Origin: Brachybacterium avium
Lineage (GTDB): Bacteria > Actinomycetota > Actinomycetes > Actinomycetales > Dermabacteraceae
Assembly (NCBI RefSeq): GCF_002216795.1
Contig: NZ_CP022316.1
Coordinates: 1,798,001 to 1,862,000, forward strand
Direction of reading: 5' to 3'
Length of the DNA: 64,000 nucleotides
Position 1 is the stretch's first letter. Each line of letters opens with the position of its first letter. Shown here one piece after another: positions 18,782 through 29,890 of the stretch. The translations under genes were made by a program, and so were the position numbers. The notes under the pieces were generated by a model. That model searched no databases. It saw nothing but the letters and a program-made list of their open reading frames with translations, and was not told where the DNA came from.

Positions 18782-19034
18782 ATATCCACATGTTCGTCCA
18801 CATCGTTGTCCACAGCCCATATCACCTGCGTCCACATAGTTGTCCACAGTTGACTGTGGATAGAGGCGTCAGAACTATTCGTGCTGCCGTGGCGGGGATA
18901 GGGCTCTGACCTGCGATGATGCTGGTAGTGAGTGGAATGTCCGATCGCTACGCCCACCACGAGATGAGCGCCCGATTCCCACTACCACACTTTTCTTACG
19001 GTTGTACAGGGCTTTATCCACAAAGTTGCGCACA
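18782..19034. other. DnaA-box cluster, trxB side
   Basis: Six boxes in 82 bp: ATATCCACA 18782-18790, TCGTCCACA 18794-18802, TTGTCCACA 18806-18814 (perfect), GCGTCCACA 18828-18836, TTGTCCACA 18840-18848 (perfect), and CTATCCACA on the minus strand 18855-18863. Further on come TTATCCACA 19014-19022 (perfect) and TTGCGCACA 19026-19034. This is at least as dense as the dnaA-dnaN intergenic region. Confidence 0.75.
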
Positions 19035-19248: not shown

Positions 19249-20907
19249 GTTTCTCGTGAAACGCGCCTGTTAGCGTTGTTGGGCTTCTACGGGGAAGATC
19301 CTGGTTTCACGTGAATCGTCGACCTTGACGCCCACGGTATCGGTGCAGCTGACGCGCATTACGCACCCACCGGTCTGCCACGAGAAGCGAAGAGGGCTGT
19401 TCTTCCGAGTTTCACGTGAATCTCACCGTCTCCGCGTGTGCATGCAGCCCGCCACCTCTCGGGTAGAGAATCCTTCGTGCGGAGGTCGATGGGTGCCCAC
19501 CGGATTCTGGAGGATGGTCACGGTAGACGAGGGTTGCACGTGAAACGGCGAGGGATGTGGGCTGTTCTCGCGGCGTACGGTCGGGAAGTCGGATGTCGCG
19601 TTTCCCGTGGAACACTTCCAAGCACTCCTACGATGCATCGGAGTGAGCTTCTTCTACGGGGACATTTGCTGGGACTTATAGCAGCTCTCTCCCCGTCTCA
19701 GACGTTCGAGTCGAAGCCGCCTCGACCGGTGAGGTTATGAGTGTGCAGACGAGCAACAATGTGACCGCAGGCCGACCAAACAGTTCGAACGCCACCCGGT
19801 GTCGCAGCGAGCATTCACAGGCTGGACTCGCACCGGATCCGATGGGGAGGCCTCATGCCTCGCTTTTCGTCCGAGCAGACCCCTATCTGCATCATCGATC
19901 CATTTTCATAAAGAACGCACACACCAGAGAGACATAGCGGGGACACCGGCGAAGAGCCCTACTCGTCAACCGTCAAGCATTGACCCGCTGCCTCTTCAGG
20001 TCACGTCTCATCACGTGGTGATGTTTCGCGTGAAACCTCCTCCGCAATTGGAGCGCTCCCCAGCGCCTACCCGAGGGGATAGGCCATAAAAGTGGTCCGC
20101 ACGCAGTCGCTGACGCGGCGACCCATCGTCTTGCATGATCGTAAAGTTTCCCGTGGAACATCTCTATTCGTGCCGAGCATCAGTCAGCACAGCGCGACTG
20201 CTCCGCGGGCTTCTAGTGGAGGATTGGAGCTTCCCATCGCTCGCCGTCATGTCGATTCAACTCGTCAGGCTCGATCGAGGATTCACGGGAAACGTCCGCT
20301 TCACCTGGAAGCGACAAGGGTCATCTCCCGTGACCCAGCACCGTCGGCTACCGACCCTCTCCCCGTGCCTCACGCGCGGAGAGCGTTCCCATCCTCTGGG
20401 GGCCTGGACGATGCACATAGGGGTTTCACGTTGAACATTCGGTTCTTGCGGCGCGCTGCTCTTTCGTGGCGGAACACTCCCCACCACGCTCCGAGAGAGC
20501 GGAGCTGGTTGCCTCGGGGCTCGTTCCGTCGACGAAGCTGATCTGTCGGGCACGCGCGGCGCAGCTCTGGTGACTGCTCCATCGCAGGAGAGACCGAGGT
20601 TTCCCGTGGAACGCGTCATTGCATCGTCGGCGGCCGACTCTGGGGTTCACTGGAACGGCATGTGTGCGCCTGCAGTTCCGCTCCCAAGTCGACGTTCCAC
20701 GGGAAACGTACGGAAGTAGTGGACTGGATGGCGGAGATCAACGTGTGGAATGGGAAGCGGACGCTTTGCCCCATCTACGTGCTCGTTTCACGGGGAACAT
20801 CAGCGATCGTCTGCCAGTCGGCCGTGTCGAATGCGAACGGAAGTCCTTCATCAGCAATCGGTCGGACCAAGAAGGTCTCCGCCGACGCCTACAGTTTCCC
20901 GTGGAAC
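19249..20907. repeat. parS: Array of 13 (up to 15) parS-like sites
   Basis: 14-mers related to GTTTCACGTGAAAC. One mismatch: 19249-19262 (GTTTCTCGTGAAAC), 19304-19317 and 19409-19422 (GTTTCACGTGAATC), 19533-19546 (GTTGCACGTGAAAC), 20023-20036 (GTTTCGCGTGAAAC). Two mismatches: GTTTCCCGTGGAAC at 19600-19613, 20146-20159, 20599-20612, 20894-20907 and inverted at 20694-20707; GATTCACGGGAAAC 20280-20293; GTTTCACGTTGAAC 20423-20436; GTTTCACGGGGAAC 20785-20798. Weaker: 20644-20656 (one base deleted) and 20298-20312. Spacing is mostly 50-180 bp with one 409-bp gap. parB is adjacent, so these are the likely ParB nucleation sites. Confidence 0.85.
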
Positions 20908-21064: not shown

Positions 21065-21096
21065 ATGTCCACAAGGTTGTGCACATCGGTGGACAA
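21065..21096. other. DnaA-box group, parB side
   Basis: ATGTCCACA 21065-21073, TTGTGCACA 21077-21085, and TTGTCCACC on the minus strand 21088-21096. Three near-consensus boxes in 32 bp close the other end of the parS-like array. Confidence 0.6.
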
Positions 21097-21317: not shown

Positions 21318-23237
21318 TCACTCCTCGGAACTGGAGTCTCCTGCGGCGAAGGGCAGGTCCAAGCCCATGTTCTCCACGAGCCGCTCAAGATCCTCGAGAT
21401 TCGTGAATTCGAGGGTGACACGCCCCTTGCGCTTTCCGACGTCGATACGCACCGGTGCTTCCAGACGGTTGGACAGTCGGCTGGTCAGATCCACGACATG
21501 CGGATCGTAGGTGCTGCGTCGCACCGTGCGCGTGGCTGGCTGCTGGCCCCCACGGGCGACAAGACGTTCCACGGCACGCACGCTCAGGCCCTCCTGCACG
21601 ATGCGCTGGGCGAGCTCCTCCATCAGCCGAGGATCATCGAGCGAGAGGAGCGCACGGGCATGACCCGCGCTGATCGCACCGCTGGCCAGCCTGCGCTGGA
21701 CGAGGGCCGGCAGGCGCAGGAGGCGCAGGGTGTTCGTGATCTGCGGTCGCGAGCGCCCGATCCGGTCACCGAGCTCGTCCTGGGTGCAGCCGAAATCCTC
21801 GAGCAGCTGCTGGTAGGCGTTGGCCTCTTCGAGCGGATTCAGCTGGCTGCGGTGGAGGTTCTCCAGCAGGGCATCGCGCAGCAGATCATCATCGCTGGTC
21901 TCACGGATGATCGCCGGGATCGAGAGCAGACCGGCCCGGCGTGCGGCTCTCCATCGCCGTTCGCCCATGACCAGCTCGAAGGACTCCCCGTCCTCGGTGA
22001 CCGGGATCGGGCGCACGACCACGGGCTGCAGGACTCCGACCTCGCGCAGCGAGTGGGCGAGCTCGTCGAGCTCGTCGTCGTCGAACATCGTGCGAGGGTT
22101 GCGGGGGTTTTCCCGCACCTCGTGGATGGGGATCTCCGCGAACTCGGCGCCCGGCACGCTCACCAGCCCGCGGTCGTGAGAGGAGTCCTGCACCGGTGCG
22201 TCGGCCTCGGCAGAAGTCTGCGGGGACGGCTGCGGCTCCGGTGCGCGTGGTGCGGTCTCCTCCGCCTCATCGGGGGCGGCGAGGGGCTCGGGGATCCGGG
22301 CGGCGGTCGGGGTCACCGGTTCGACGTCCACGACCGGGCTGTCCTCGTGCCGTTCGCCGCGGTCTGCCGCCGGGGCCTTCGTGGTAGCCGAAACGCTGTC
22401 CGCAGGCGGTGCTGTGGCCGACGGAGCCTCCACCTCGGCGTCTGCGGGCTCTGCTGCATGAGGCGCGGACGAGACGGGCTCCGGCGCGGCGGGCGTCGAT
22501 TCCGGCGCCGGCTCCGCAGACGAGGAGCGGGGTGGTGCCGTCGTGGCGGTCGTCTGCTCGATCGACGGGGACGTCTCGGCAGCCGGTGCCTCGGTCTTCT
22601 CGGTCCCGGTGCTGCTGGATCCCGTCGTCGGCGGCTGCGGGGTCTTCGTGGCCGGAGCCTTCGGTGCGGAAGTCTTCTCCGCAGGGGTGGTCTTGGCGGG
22701 GGAGGTCTTCGCGGGGGTCTTCTTCGCAGGAGTCTTCTTCGCTGCGGTCTTGGTCGTTGACGCCTTGCTCTCCGACGTCGTCGTCGAGTCCTTCGCTGCC
22801 GACGCGGCGGATCGCTTGGACCCGCTCCTGGCGGCCGGGCTCTTCGAGGCGCGAGTACCAGTAGCGGGCGACGGGGCAGGATCCGCAGCGGGCGTCTTCT
22901 GCGTGCTCTGGCTCGCCGACCGGTCGGAGACGGCGCCGGTCCCGGAGGTGCGGCGTCCCGTTGTGCTGCCGGAGCGGCCTCGCCGCTCAGCAGCCGCACG
23001 GGCCATACCGGTGGCGAGATCGCGGGCACCTGCCCGCTCGCGCTGAGCATTCTCCTCGTCGCGCGTGGCCTTCTCCCCGGAGAAGAACATATCCACCGGC
23101 CGGGTGCTCCCGGGCTCGCCGCTCGGGCTCGACGCCGACTGCGTGCGCGTACGAAGCTCCTGCTCAGGCGCAGGGGTCGAGCCGGCGCCCGGGATCAGGG
23201 CACCCAGTCCTCGACCGAGTCCTCGCTTCTGCGTCAT
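21318..23237 (-). CDS. parB: Chromosome-partitioning protein ParB with a very long disordered insertion
   Basis: 639 residues, against roughly 300-380 in most Actinobacteria. The N-terminal tag RGLGRGLGALIP (5-16) should contact ParA. Residues about 20-365 are low-complexity: a basic part (81-190) with Lys/Ala/Pro repeats (AAKKTPAKKTPAK, 165-177), then an acidic Pro/Ala/Thr part. The conserved core follows: IHEVRENPRNPR (371-382), CTP-binding GERRWRAARR (425-434) and ENLHR (459-463), the helix-turn-helix TQDELGDRIGRSRPQITNTL (485-504), and a C-terminal dimerisation domain. It loads on parS as a CTP-dependent clamp. Start ATG 23237 precedes the conserved tag. Confidence 0.95.
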   Translation of the reverse strand: MTQKRGLGRGLGALIPGAGSTPAPEQELRTRTQSASSPSGEPGSTRPVDMFFSGEKATRDEENAQRERAGARDLATGMARAAAERRGRSGSTTGRRTSGTGAVSDRSASQSTQKTPAADPAPSPATGTRASKSPAARSGSKRSAASAAKDSTTTSESKASTTKTAAKKTPAKKTPAKTSPAKTTPAEKTSAPKAPATKTPQPPTTGSSSTGTEKTEAPAAETSPSIEQTTATTAPPRSSSAEPAPESTPAAPEPVSSAPHAAEPADAEVEAPSATAPPADSVSATTKAPAADRGERHEDSPVVDVEPVTPTAARIPEPLAAPDEAEETAPRAPEPQPSPQTSAEADAPVQDSSHDRGLVSVPGAEFAEIPIHEVRENPRNPRTMFDDDELDELAHSLREVGVLQPVVVRPIPVTEDGESFELVMGERRWRAARRAGLLSIPAIIRETSDDDLLRDALLENLHRSQLNPLEEANAYQQLLEDFGCTQDELGDRIGRSRPQITNTLRLLRLPALVQRRLASGAISAGHARALLSLDDPRLMEELAQRIVQEGLSVRAVERLVARGGQQPATRTVRRSTYDPHVVDLTSRLSNRLEAPVRIDVGKRKGRVTLEFTNLEDLERLVENMGLDLPFAAGDSSSEE

Positions 23238-23325
23238 GGCCGTTGTCCTTCCGAGAAATGTCGTCGCCGTCGAGGGGTCCAGAGGTCCCGCATGCACCAT
23301 CGCGTCAAGGATCCGTGGAACGGAG

Positions 23326-24249
23326 TCAGGGGGCGGAGCGGGAATTCAGTTCATGAGCTGCTGCACGATACGCGAGCGCGCCGCTCGAGCTCGGATCGTA
23401 GGTCAGCACCGTCTGGCCGTAGCTCGGTGCCTCCGAGATCCGCACCGAGCGCGGGATCGAGGTCTGCAGCGTCTGTTCGGGGAAGTGATCGCGGACGTCC
23501 TGGGCGACCTGCGCGGCCAGGCGGGTCCGGGCGTCGTACATCGTGAGCATGATCGTGGAGACCACCAGGTCAGGGTTCAGATGCTGGCGGATCAGGTCGA
23601 TGTTGTTCAGCAGCAGCGAGAGGCCCTCGAGCGCGTAGTACTCGGCCTGGATCGGGATCAGCACCTCGCGGGCGGCGACCAGGGCGTTGACCGTCAGCAG
23701 CCCGAGGGAGGGCGGGCAGTCGATCAGCACGTAGTCCAGGGGTTCCATCCCCTGCTGAGCGCGGTCCTCGAGATGGTCGCGGATCGCATTGCGCAGCCGG
23801 TTCTCGCGGGCCACCAGCGAGACCAGCTCGATCTCGGCACCGGAGAGGTTGATGGTGGCCGGGGCGCAGAACAGGCCCTTCATCTCGGGGACCTGCTGCA
23901 CCACCTCGGTCAGCGGCGCGGACTCCACCAGCACCTCGTACATGCTGGGGACCTCGGCGTGATGCTCGATGTTCAGCGCGGTGGAGGTGTTCCCCTGCGG
24001 ATCCGCATCGATCACCAGCACGTTCAGACCGCCCATGGACAGCGCGGCGGCGACGTTCACGGTGGTGGAGGTCTTGCCGACCCCACCCTTCTGATTGGCC
24101 ACGGTGATGATCCGGGTCTCGCCAGAGCGCGGGAACTCGAGGCCCTCGAGCTTCTTCCTGCGGGCGTGATCCCGGGTGAGCTCTCGCATCAGCGGGGTGT
24201 CTTCCATCGCGCCGCGCTCCGGGGAGGAATCATCGCGCTGTTCAGCCAC
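23326..24249 (-). CDS. parA: Chromosome-partitioning ATPase ParA
   Basis: 307 residues. The deviant Walker A box KGGVGKT (54-60) within ITVANQKGGVGKTSTTVNVA, DADPQGNTSTALN, and the Walker B-like VLIDCPPSLGLLTVNAL are diagnostic for ParA/Soj. It forms ATP dimers on DNA and moves ParB-parS complexes apart after origin duplication. The GTG at 24249-24247 overlaps the end of rsmG and follows the purine-rich GGAAGGGAG; an internal ATG 14 codons later is a possible alternative. parB follows 88 bases downstream on the same strand. Confidence 0.95.
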   Translation of the reverse strand: MAEQRDDSSPERGAMEDTPLMRELTRDHARRKKLEGLEFPRSGETRIITVANQKGGVGKTSTTVNVAAALSMGGLNVLVIDADPQGNTSTALNIEHHAEVPSMYEVLVESAPLTEVVQQVPEMKGLFCAPATINLSGAEIELVSLVARENRLRNAIRDHLEDRAQQGMEPLDYVLIDCPPSLGLLTVNALVAAREVLIPIQAEYYALEGLSLLLNNIDLIRQHLNPDLVVSTIMLTMYDARTRLAAQVAQDVRDHFPEQTLQTSIPRSVRISEAPSYGQTVLTYDPSSSGALAYRAAAHELNSRSAP

Positions 24250-24916
24250 GTGCGTCTCCCTTCCTGGTCGCCTTCGCACGGCGACGCACTTGGACCACTG
24301 TAGTGGGAACCTCGACCTCTCCCGTCCCGTACAGCGAGATGGTGGGATCCTCGCCTCCGAGCCGGGCCAGGGCCTTCTGTGCCTTCTCGACTTCGTCCGC
24401 CGCCGAGGAGCCCTTCATGGCCAGCAGCGAACCACCATCGGCCACCAGGGGCAGCGTCCAGCGGGCCAGCTTGTCCAGGGCCGCGACGGCGCGAGCGGTC
24501 ACCACGTCGAAGCTGCGCCGGCCGTGCAGGTCCTCCGCCCGGGTCCGCAGCACCTCGAGGCCGAGACCCAGCTCGGCATCGACCTCCTCGAGCCAGCTGG
24601 TGCGACGCTGCATCGTCTCGATCAGGGTGACCTGCAGGTGCGGGCGCGCGATCGCGATCACCACACCGGGCAGGCCGGCCCCTGAGCCGACGTCGGCGAG
24701 GGTGGAGACGGAATGGTCAAGAGCATCGATCGCGTCGACCATCAGCGCGCAGTTGAGCAGGTGCCGTTCCCAGAGCCGATCGACCTCGCGCGGGCCGATC
24801 AGGCCGCGCTCGGGCCCCTGCTCGGCCAGCATCGCGACGTAGCGCTCGGCGAGCTCGAGGCGGTCTCCGAAGAGACGCTCGGCCGTCGGGCGCAGGGTGT
24901 CGGGCAGAGGGTGCAT
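24242..24916 (-). CDS. rsmG: 16S rRNA (guanine-N7) methyltransferase RsmG
   Basis: 224 residues. The SAM-binding motif ADVGSGAGLPGVVIAIARP and the upstream LWERHLLNCALM (RHLLNS-type motif) identify RsmG/GidB, which methylates G527 of 16S rRNA. VTARAVAALDKL is the usual catalytic-side segment. It sits between jag and parA, its standard place near the origin. Nothing unusual in length or motifs. Overlaps the parA start. Confidence 0.95.
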   Translation of the reverse strand: MHPLPDTLRPTAERLFGDRLELAERYVAMLAEQGPERGLIGPREVDRLWERHLLNCALMVDAIDALDHSVSTLADVGSGAGLPGVVIAIARPHLQVTLIETMQRRTSWLEEVDAELGLGLEVLRTRAEDLHGRRSFDVVTARAVAALDKLARWTLPLVADGGSLLAMKGSSAADEVEKAQKALARLGGEDPTISLYGTGEVEVPTTVVQVRRRAKATRKGDARG

Positions 24917-28001: not shown

Positions 28002-28106
28002 CGTCTCAGCGCTTCTGCGGCCCGGTTGTGGCCGGATTCTCACTCCGCATCGGCGTTTCGCTGCGATCGGCACGCTCGAGCCGGGAGAGGAGGACCTCAC
28101 GACATG

Positions 28107-28150
28107 TTGTCCACATCCTTGATCCACAATACAGAAGCTATTGTGGAAAA
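28107..28150 (+). promoter_or_regulatory. dnaA promoter with overlapping DnaA boxes
   Basis: TTGTCC (28107-28112) and TACAGA (28130-28135) have a 17-bp spacer. The -35 is part of a perfect DnaA box TTGTCCACA (28107-28115); further boxes are TGATCCACA 28120-28128 and TTTTCCACA (minus) 28142-28150. This layout implies repression by DnaA itself. Promoter assignment is by inspection. Confidence 0.55.
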
Positions 28151-28189
28151 CTGTTCCGACCGCCCGCTCGACCTCAAGGGAGTGACCTG

Positions 28190-29890
28190 ATGACCGAGGC
28201 GAACGCCGACGCGATCTGGGAGCACACGCTCCAGACCCTGCGCCGTGACGACACCGTGTCGCAGCGGGTCATCGCTCTGCTCACGCTCTCCCGCCTGATG
28301 GCCGTGGTCGCGGACACTGCGCTGGTCGCAGCCCCGTCCACTTCGGCGAAGGAGCTGTTCGAGCACAGGATCGCGAGCTCGTTGAAGGCGGCCCTGAGCG
28401 AGGCCACCGGGCGGGACATCCGCTTCGCGGTGACGGTCGACGAGTCGCTGCTGCTCGAGGGGGACAGCCCCGATCCGGTGCCGTCGCCGCCCCTGACCTC
28501 CTCCTCCACCCAGAACAGTGCACATTTTGTGGACAACTCTGTGGACAGTGCCGGGCAGGATGTCCACACCGCCCCGTTCCGGCGGGACGAGGGCTCGGTC
28601 CTGCCCACGAGCGAGGAGCTGGGACAGGCGGCCCTGCCCCGCAGCGGCGCAGCCGGCTCCCCGGGCGCCGCCTCCGGGGCGGAGCGGTTCGCGACCCACC
28701 GCGACTACCGCGGTCGCGCGGCGGACGACCCCAGCGCCTACGCCGGTCTCTCGGCACTGACGGGGTCCTCGGCGCCCTCACCCGGCCCGGCTCCCCGCCG
28801 CCGGAGCACCGCTGTGGAGGGTGCGCTGGTCGAGGATTCCCGCCTGAACAGCAAATACACCTTCGACACGTTCGTGATCGGTTCCTCGAACCGCTTCGCG
28901 CAGGCCGCCGCATCGGCGGTCTCGGAGACCCCGGCCAAGGCCTACAACCCGCTGTTCATCTACGGCGGTTCGGGCCTGGGCAAGACGCATCTGCTGCACG
29001 CGGTGGGTCACTACGCGCAGAGCCTCTACCCCGACGTGGTGGTGCGGTACGTGAACTCCGAGGAGTTCACCAACGAGTTCATCAACTCCGTGCAGTCCGG
29101 GCAGTTCGGCAAGGCACAGGAGTTCCAGCGCCGGTACCGGGACATCGACATCCTGCTCATCGACGACATCCAGTTCCTGCAGCGGGCGCCGGAGACGATG
29201 GAGGCGTTCTTCCACACCTTCAACACGCTCTACAACTCGGACAAGCAGATCGTGATCACCTCCGATCTGCCGCCGAAGGAGCTGGGCGGCTTCGAGGACC
29301 GCATGCGCTCCCGCTTCGAGATGGGGCTGATGACCGATGTGCAGCCCCCGGACCTCGAGACCCGCATCGCGATCCTGCGCAAGAAGGTCGCCCAGGAGAA
29401 CACCGGCGAAGTCCCGCATGACGTGCTGGAGTACATCGCCTCGCACATCGCCACCAACATCCGCGAGCTCGAGGGCGCGCTGATCCGGGTGCAGGCGCTG
29501 CACTCCCTGTCCCGGCAGCCGATGGACGTCACCCTGGCCGAGAGCGTGCTGAAGGATCTGCTCTCGCACGACGACGGCGCCCAGATCACCGCCTCGACGA
29601 TCATCGCCCAGACCGCGACCTACTTCGGGCTCTCCGTCGAGGAGATCGTGGGCAGCGGCCGGTCACGGCGCCTGGTCTCGGCCCGACAGATCGGCATGTA
29701 CCTCTGCCGCGAGCTCACAGATATGCCACTGATCCGGATCGGCGACGAGTTCGGTGGTCGCGACCACACCACCGTGATGCATGCCAACAAGAAGATCAGC
29801 GAGCTGATGAAGGAACGACGAGCGATCTTCAACCAGGTCACCGAGCTCACAGCCCGGATCAAGAGCTCGAGCTCCGCGACCCGTCAGTGA
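28190..29890 (+). CDS. dnaA: Chromosomal replication initiator DnaA
   Basis: 566 residues. Domain I (1-100), a long Pro/Ser/Ala linker domain II (about 100-220), AAA+ domain III with Walker [21 protein letters not shown] (from about 258) and Walker [12 protein letters not shown], and the domain IV DNA-binding signature [16 protein letters not shown] (about 520-535). DnaA-ATP melts the origin. ATG 28190 follows AAGGGAG; the longer upstream frame runs through the promoter and is rejected. Three DnaA boxes lie inside the domain II codons (28528-28568). Confidence 0.97.
28528..28568. other. DnaA boxes inside the dnaA coding sequence
   Basis: TTGTCCACA on the minus strand 28528-28536 (perfect), CTGTCCACA minus 28540-28548, and ATGTCCACA plus 28560-28568. 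They encode part of the variable linker of DnaA ([16 protein letters not shown]), which tolerates such sequence. Confidence 0.6.

Follow-up and report, generated by a model that had tools for sequence, protein, structure and literature searches.

The 64 kb stretch of Brachybacterium avium chromosome analysed here (the window) carries thirteen separate parS-like sites of intermediate strength beside parB and no perfect one, and from the sequence evidence below these sites probably form a functional ParB-loading centromere, a reading to which we give a probability of roughly 0.6. parS is usually regarded as a sequence selected toward perfection. The array suggests that a bacterial centromere can persist as many medium-strength sites rather than a few perfect ones. 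The steady number of good but imperfect sites that the genus keeps offers a natural test of whether single-site affinity or array capacity is the selected trait of a centromere.

We scanned the window with GTTTCACGTGAAAC at up to three mismatches and obtained 13 matches, all at 19249-20907. None is exact; the nearest to canonical are five with one mismatch, and the remaining eight have two. Dinucleotide-shuffled versions of the window gave 0.69 ± 0.88 matches (maximum 5). Across the whole genome (3,568,502 bases, three contigs) the 13 array sites were the only matches within two mismatches, and the reversed pattern, run as a control, gave 0. The two scans thus bear out the description in an earlier note on this DNA, thirteen 14-mers within one or two mismatches and no exact site, and the genome-wide scan finds no match within two mismatches outside the array, so no canonical site lies elsewhere. 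The sites are as follows.

19249..19262, no strand assigned: parS-like site 1, GTTTCTCGTGAAAC, one mismatch
19304..19317, no strand assigned: parS-like site 2, GTTTCACGTGAATC, one mismatch
19409..19422, no strand assigned: parS-like site 3, GTTTCACGTGAATC, one mismatch
19533..19546, no strand assigned: parS-like site 4, GTTGCACGTGAAAC, one mismatch
19600..19613, no strand assigned: parS-like site 5, GTTTCCCGTGGAAC, two mismatches
20023..20036, no strand assigned: parS-like site 6, GTTTCGCGTGAAAC, one mismatch
20146..20159, no strand assigned: parS-like site 7, GTTTCCCGTGGAAC, two mismatches
20280..20293, no strand assigned: parS-like site 8, GATTCACGGGAAAC, two mismatches
20423..20436, no strand assigned: parS-like site 9, GTTTCACGTTGAAC, two mismatches
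20599..20612, no strand assigned: parS-like site 10, GTTTCCCGTGGAAC, two mismatches
20694..20707, no strand assigned: parS-like site 11, GTTCCACGGGAAAC, two mismatches
20785..20798, no strand assigned: parS-like site 12, GTTTCACGGGGAAC, two mismatches
20894..20907, no strand assigned: parS-like site 13, GTTTCCCGTGGAAC, two mismatches

All 13 begin with G and end with C, and the canonical half-site GTTTCAC makes up one half of seven of them and neither half of the other six. Two additional weaker copies claimed by the earlier note fell away: a weight matrix built from other species scores the 13 sites at 16.8-22.7 and the next-best 14-mer of the gap at 1.4, so that the array comprises 13 sites, not 15. 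The best scores elsewhere in the window reach 7.5, above that next-best 14-mer of the gap.

The array occupies a 2.6 kb convergent gap beside parB. To the left of the gap lies the thioredoxin reductase gene trxB (Pyr_redox_2, Pfam), then a short frame that matches nothing in Pfam and is taken as thioredoxin-like from its position and sequence. On the other side are the partition and initiator genes.

21318..23300, minus strand: parB, 660 aa as called, with Pfam domains ParB_N, HTH_ParB and ParB_C; its 3' end faces the array
23326..24279, minus strand: parA (AAA_31, Pfam)
28028-29890: dnaA (DnaA domains, Pfam), with more genes between parA and dnaA

The locus has several features of a chromosomal ParABS system: parA and parB, identified by their Pfam domains, adjoin the sites near oriC genes; the sites themselves are multiple clustered copies of a 14-16 bp parS palindrome near oriC, 13 in number with one or two mismatches each; and the ParB carries recognition residues of the parS type.

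A comparable array is present throughout the genus. We searched 38 genus genomes and took 35 gaps, with the window as a 36th; G001 and G005 yielded no match that could be used, and the gaps of G050 and G006, which run off their contigs, were excluded, leaving 34 species. Counting matches with up to three mismatches, each of the 34 species with a complete gap has 10-17 sites in its array; the 470 sites give a mean of 13.8 and a variance-to-mean ratio of 0.23. The arrays span 1.2-2.3 kb, save two at 3.6 and 4.3 kb. In another search, of 24 same-genus genomes, 21 have 10-16 matches within two mismatches; the three with none are 74, 84 and 88% complete. Across the genus only 2.3% of inter-site distances are below 40 bp, as against 17% under simulated uniform placement, and the median is 134 bp. 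A higher site number tracks weaker sites (rho 0.42, p 0.012, with no phylogenetic correction).

The DNA around the sites is far less conserved. The window array DNA is matched in none of the other genus genomes, including G004, whose ParB core is 96% identical, and over 107,148 site pairs flank similarity is about that of random positions, apart from the close pair G044/G017 and one stray pair; 453 of the 470 sites fall apart by flank comparison. Taken over all species, the longest chain shared between spacing series averages 4.60, against 4.57 after shuffling, and longer chains are kept in close species (13 in G044/G017, 9 in G044/G042, 8 in G004/G051). The 14-mers of close species differ from one another yet remain imperfect. 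Site positions are thus, by sequence comparison, inherited among close species, with no shared pattern detectable at greater distance, and the idea that sites are re-made at new places in every species finds no support for close species in the kept spacing series. Because close species retain similar spacing series, the 470 sites are not independent events and overstate the sample. The earlier note had proposed to look for conserved sites and spacing in the gaps of relatives and would have taken a lack of conservation of the 14-mers as refutation. That refuting test comes out half positive: the array is conserved, while the single 14-mers and spacings are not between most species. What is kept across the genus, though the array DNA is unalignable in nearly all pairs, is the number of sites, their minimum spacing and their quality of one or two mismatches. 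The array is not directional, as the perfect half faces either way (178 versus 150, p 0.14), and no helical phasing of the sites at 10.5 bp was found.

The second property of these arrays is the near-lack of exact sites. Zero, one, two and three mismatches account for 5, 229, 200 and 36 of the 470 Brachybacterium sites, and the exact site is missing in 32 of 34 species, four of the five exact copies being in G040 and one in G011. One perfect half is found in 328 sites, both in 5 and neither in 137, and a model of independent half-sites predicts about 121 exact sites where 5 are seen. In our first set (261 sites from the window and 18 loci), the halves were shuffled 2000 times; exact sites then averaged 37 and never fell below 24, again against 5 seen. 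On the other hand, four genomes from three other genera of the Dermabacteraceae (G201, G236, G096 and G286), which likewise have 11-18 matches within two mismatches, most of them within about 1-3.5 kb and with parB in the same fetched stretch, show no such deficit: 25 of their 60 matches are exact (7, 9, 7 and 2), and independent halves predict 28.8. In an order-wide sample of 297 genomes, at least one exact site is present in 230 of 278 outside the genus versus 2 of 19 inside it. Judged by these counts, the perfect site is shown to have lost the large over-representation that it has in related genera.

Tight clustering, which the earlier note had contrasted with the scattered sites of many bacteria, is no oddity in itself: in 25 genomes of other families, picked for their listed exact sites, the matches in the fetched stretch also cluster, spanning 0.9-9.0 kb. 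The unusual feature is the near-lack of exact sites, not the clustering within a few kilobases. The imperfect-only state is not unique to Brachybacterium, since 23 of the 278 genomes outside the genus resemble it in having zero exact but at least five one-mismatch sites. We viewed the site positions in four of these 23 (G225, G314, G154 and G290). G225 and G314 (genus g27, family f13) are a second lineage with imperfect-only arrays; their arrays hold 23 matches, 20 of them with one mismatch, and 18 of these 20 are GTTTCACGTGGAAC or its complement, in genomes picked for having zero exact sites. G154 and G290 (family f4, genus g23) were rejected as imperfect-only arrays, their one-mismatch matches being scattered genome-wide.

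If perfect sites are almost gone here and family relatives keep 2-9 each, the array might be a decaying relic, its function lost and its sites drifting from the consensus. We regard this as highly improbable. Site number is under-dispersed over the 34 species, only 36 of 470 sites have reached three mismatches, and in the close pair the sites are nearly frozen amid 26% spacer divergence. In G044 and G017, the only well alignable species pair, spacers differ at 25.7% of 1450 columns, and within sites the consensus bases differ at 3 of 174 positions and the mismatch bases at 1 of 22 (p 0.013). The G/C mismatch bases changed in 0 of 17 cases, compared with 21.6% of spacer G/C (p 0.016); read in reverse, from G017 to G044, 1 of 16 changed (p 0.11), and in comparisons with the more distant G042, 6 of 15 changed when G044 was the starting point (p 0.25) and 3 of 12 when G017 was (p 0.04). 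Kept sites in the compared species shift among one, two and three mismatches, and zero is never reached. Together, the exclusivity of the sites within the genome, the genus-wide array and this constraint on sites in the close pair support what the earlier note proposed, an imperfect parS array serving the adjoining ParB, and support taking the 13 window sites as its predicted parS sites.

The shortage of exact sites could also arise from a pure mutation-selection plateau, in which ParB saturates zero- and one-mismatch sites equally, GC-biased mutation yields the one-mismatch forms and nothing selects against the perfect one; we consider this possible, at less than even odds. Of the 737 mismatches, 599 run from A/T to G/C, and the GC-rich spacers favour one-mismatch forms. 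A flat plateau, on which the perfect site and all 42 one-mismatch forms are equally fit, predicts 4.7 exact sites by base composition or 4.2 by the trinucleotide model. The 5 seen come close enough to this that overall selection against perfect sites is not required; with G040 left out, 1 exact site is seen versus 4.05 expected on the flat model (P 0.088). The steep drop from one to two to three mismatches fits the same account, as do the degenerate C. glutamicum sites with at least three mismatches, reported in the excerpted text to have recruited no ParB (PMC7083940), and the genome G027, which at a GC content of 0.71 likewise has 1 exact and 4 one-mismatch sites. These sequence counts make it firm that the perfect site would carry no advantage here.

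Several observations do not sit well with a pure plateau. The GTTTCACGGGAAAC class, at 86 sites, is too frequent for an equally fit exact site, since equal fitness would give about 25 (base composition) or 40 (trinucleotide) exact sites, and the strongest sites may therefore be somewhat disfavoured. Of the 136 sites matching the consensus at every other position, 130 carry a change at position 6 on a single side, 5 carry none and 1 is changed on both sides; one-sidedness is not the rule at position 4, where C stands on both sides in 18 and on one side in 16. The recurrence of one asymmetric form in 18 of the 20 one-mismatch sites of the two g27 genomes, picked for zero exact sites, and the 5-8 exact sites retained by each of the GC-rich G031, G101, G035 and G086, picked for exact sites, also argue against it. 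The idea that the perfect site is disfavoured thus has partial support from the sequence patterns. The best reading of the state almost free of perfect sites is that a perfect site would bring no benefit and maybe a small cost.

We also weighed whether the Brachybacterium ParB has a changed or relaxed specificity, for which the natural sites are the true optimum. At the positions of Caulobacter R173, T179, A184 and G201 (numbered by hand along the alignment), the window ParB has R, T, R and G. Jalal et al. (PMC7383237) report that R173 and G201 are conserved among ParB proteins and describe K or R at 179/184 as permissive; in their engineered Caulobacter ParB, K/R at 184 is permissive and an RTKG variant promiscuous, so the R at the 184-aligned residue could speak for relaxation. 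The long ParB linker (239-465 residues in 19 Brachybacterium) could as well. Against this, the window ParB is unchanged opposite R173, T179 and G201, and no residue of the recognition region varies in step with the loss of exact sites. Relatives bearing exact sites also show the S/T and K/R differences, R at the 184 position among them, and the symmetric double of the favoured change, with C on either side at position 6, occurs a single time. A shifted ParB specificity, as suggested in the earlier note, is thus unsupported, because the recognition residues are canonical, and we consider it improbable. The Noc/NBS site is ATTTCCCGGGAAAT. Membership of that group calls for Q and R at the two specificity positions, where the window ParB has R and G, and 13 of 13 window sites start with G and end with C, unlike the Noc/NBS form.

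Between its RGLGRGLGAL motif and the ParB core, the window ParB has a long linker of 350 residues, low in complexity and with abundant Ala, Pro, Lys and Thr. Other genomes with the motif have 52-245 residues there (n=23), apart from G096 with 397. Linker length was rejected as the cause of weak sites: its correlation with site weakness has rho 0.41 (p 0.078, 19 species), and G096 combines its 397-residue linker with 7 exact sites, which counts against changed specificity too. A second ParB_N match lies on a small contig of the window genome (C3:14430-14630, 32.4 bits), possibly a plasmid partition protein. In G022 the reading frame of the parB core departs from its relatives about 166 residues in, where a sequencing error is likely because that genome is scored 85% complete.

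In the window genome, scored 100% complete, no bacterial SMC match above the TIGR02168 cut-off was found, and the SMC condensin that an SMC-loading platform implies was thus not found to be encoded; as a control, the profile exceeded the cut-off in 10 of 14 named genomes. The best match of the genome to the SMC profile, at 27.7 bits, falls in an SbcC_Walker_B/AAA_29 protein, which we take to be MksB/JetC-like. Almost all actinobacteria have Smc and ScpAB, according to a review (PMC4255298). The absence of SMC is a possible cause of the imperfect array, proposed from this one genome; if it holds genus-wide, Brachybacterium would give a natural instance of ParABS at work in the absence of SMC loading. 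A bolder account, which we hold unlikely, is that in this SMC-less lineage selection holds the sites sub-maximal, mostly with one half broken; ParB clamps would then be loaded and released fast, and many neighbouring sites could operate together without strong traps. Two published findings bear on ParB loading and parS in general: parS speeds closure of the ParB clamp, a step that requires two adjacent half-sites (PMC8494293), and in B. subtilis with altered or excess Smc, at least two distant parS sites hamper chromosome folding (PMC8357415).

For the preferred reading, a centromere of many intermediate sites, we propose a mechanism drawn from the literature. Each site would load ParB-CTP dimers, which would then slide out over the neighbouring spacer DNA (genus median 134 bp); jointly the sites would give rise to a single compact partition complex close to the origin genes, to be moved by ParA. 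Loading capacity would be spread over about 13 sites. If capacity belongs to an array of many sites within 2 kb, each site need only be good enough. Less securely, the lack of SMC in this genome may have altered the selection acting on the array.

Dense parS clusters and imperfect, graded sites are already known, from excerpts on Myxococcus and Caulobacter respectively; what is new is the near-exclusion of perfect parS sites throughout a genus. Myxococcus xanthus resembles our case in its 22 parS repeats, a 3 kb cluster of similar density about 4 kb from parA, with sites marked forward, reverse or palindromic (PMC3899335; the count is given as 24 in an excerpt of PMC3778016), and differs in that its consensus is the symmetric GTTCCACGTGGAAC core. 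In Caulobacter crescentus, parS 1-7 have graded ParB affinity, and the five strongest lie within 5 kb, about 8 kb from ori, according to the source excerpt (PMC5815017); there the sites are fewer, with distinct strong and weak ones. Corynebacterium glutamicum and Streptomyces share actinobacterial chromosomal parS near oriC, but the excerpts place ten sites over 35 kb in C. glutamicum and 16 within about 200 kb in S. venezuelae (PMC7083940, PMC4852455, PMC8743542). Among the open-licence papers listed, no title concerned Brachybacterium parS, also where SMC was included in the subject; one review names the genus among its genomes.

The order sample gave two further observations. In family f8 (genera g8, g26 and g46), none of the 11 sampled genomes has a parS-like site within one mismatch, which suggests a lost or different partition system. 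G227 (family f17) has 36 sites within one mismatch, 27 of them exact, with 19 listed places over about 240 kb.

Finally, the parS array of the window is flanked on both sides by groups of DnaA-box-like 9-mers.

18782..19022, no strand assigned: six DnaA-box-like 9-mers with at most one mismatch, three of them exact; trxB side, outside the array
21065..21096, no strand assigned: three DnaA-box-like 9-mers with one mismatch each; parB side

GC skew within the window was uninformative for placing the origin. In all 35 Brachybacterium gaps with sites, the trxB-side 800 bp holds 3-10 DnaA-box-like 9-mers (at most one mismatch), and of the 16 loci in which both regions could be counted, 13 have more such 9-mers there than in the dnaA-dnaN gap (392-700 bp) and 3 have fewer. 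As the trxB side is the richer in DnaA boxes, replication may start beside the array, or DnaA may be retained there. On the parB side, a stretch of about 35 bp at the DnaA boxes is matched in four relatives (G004, G051, G011 and G019).
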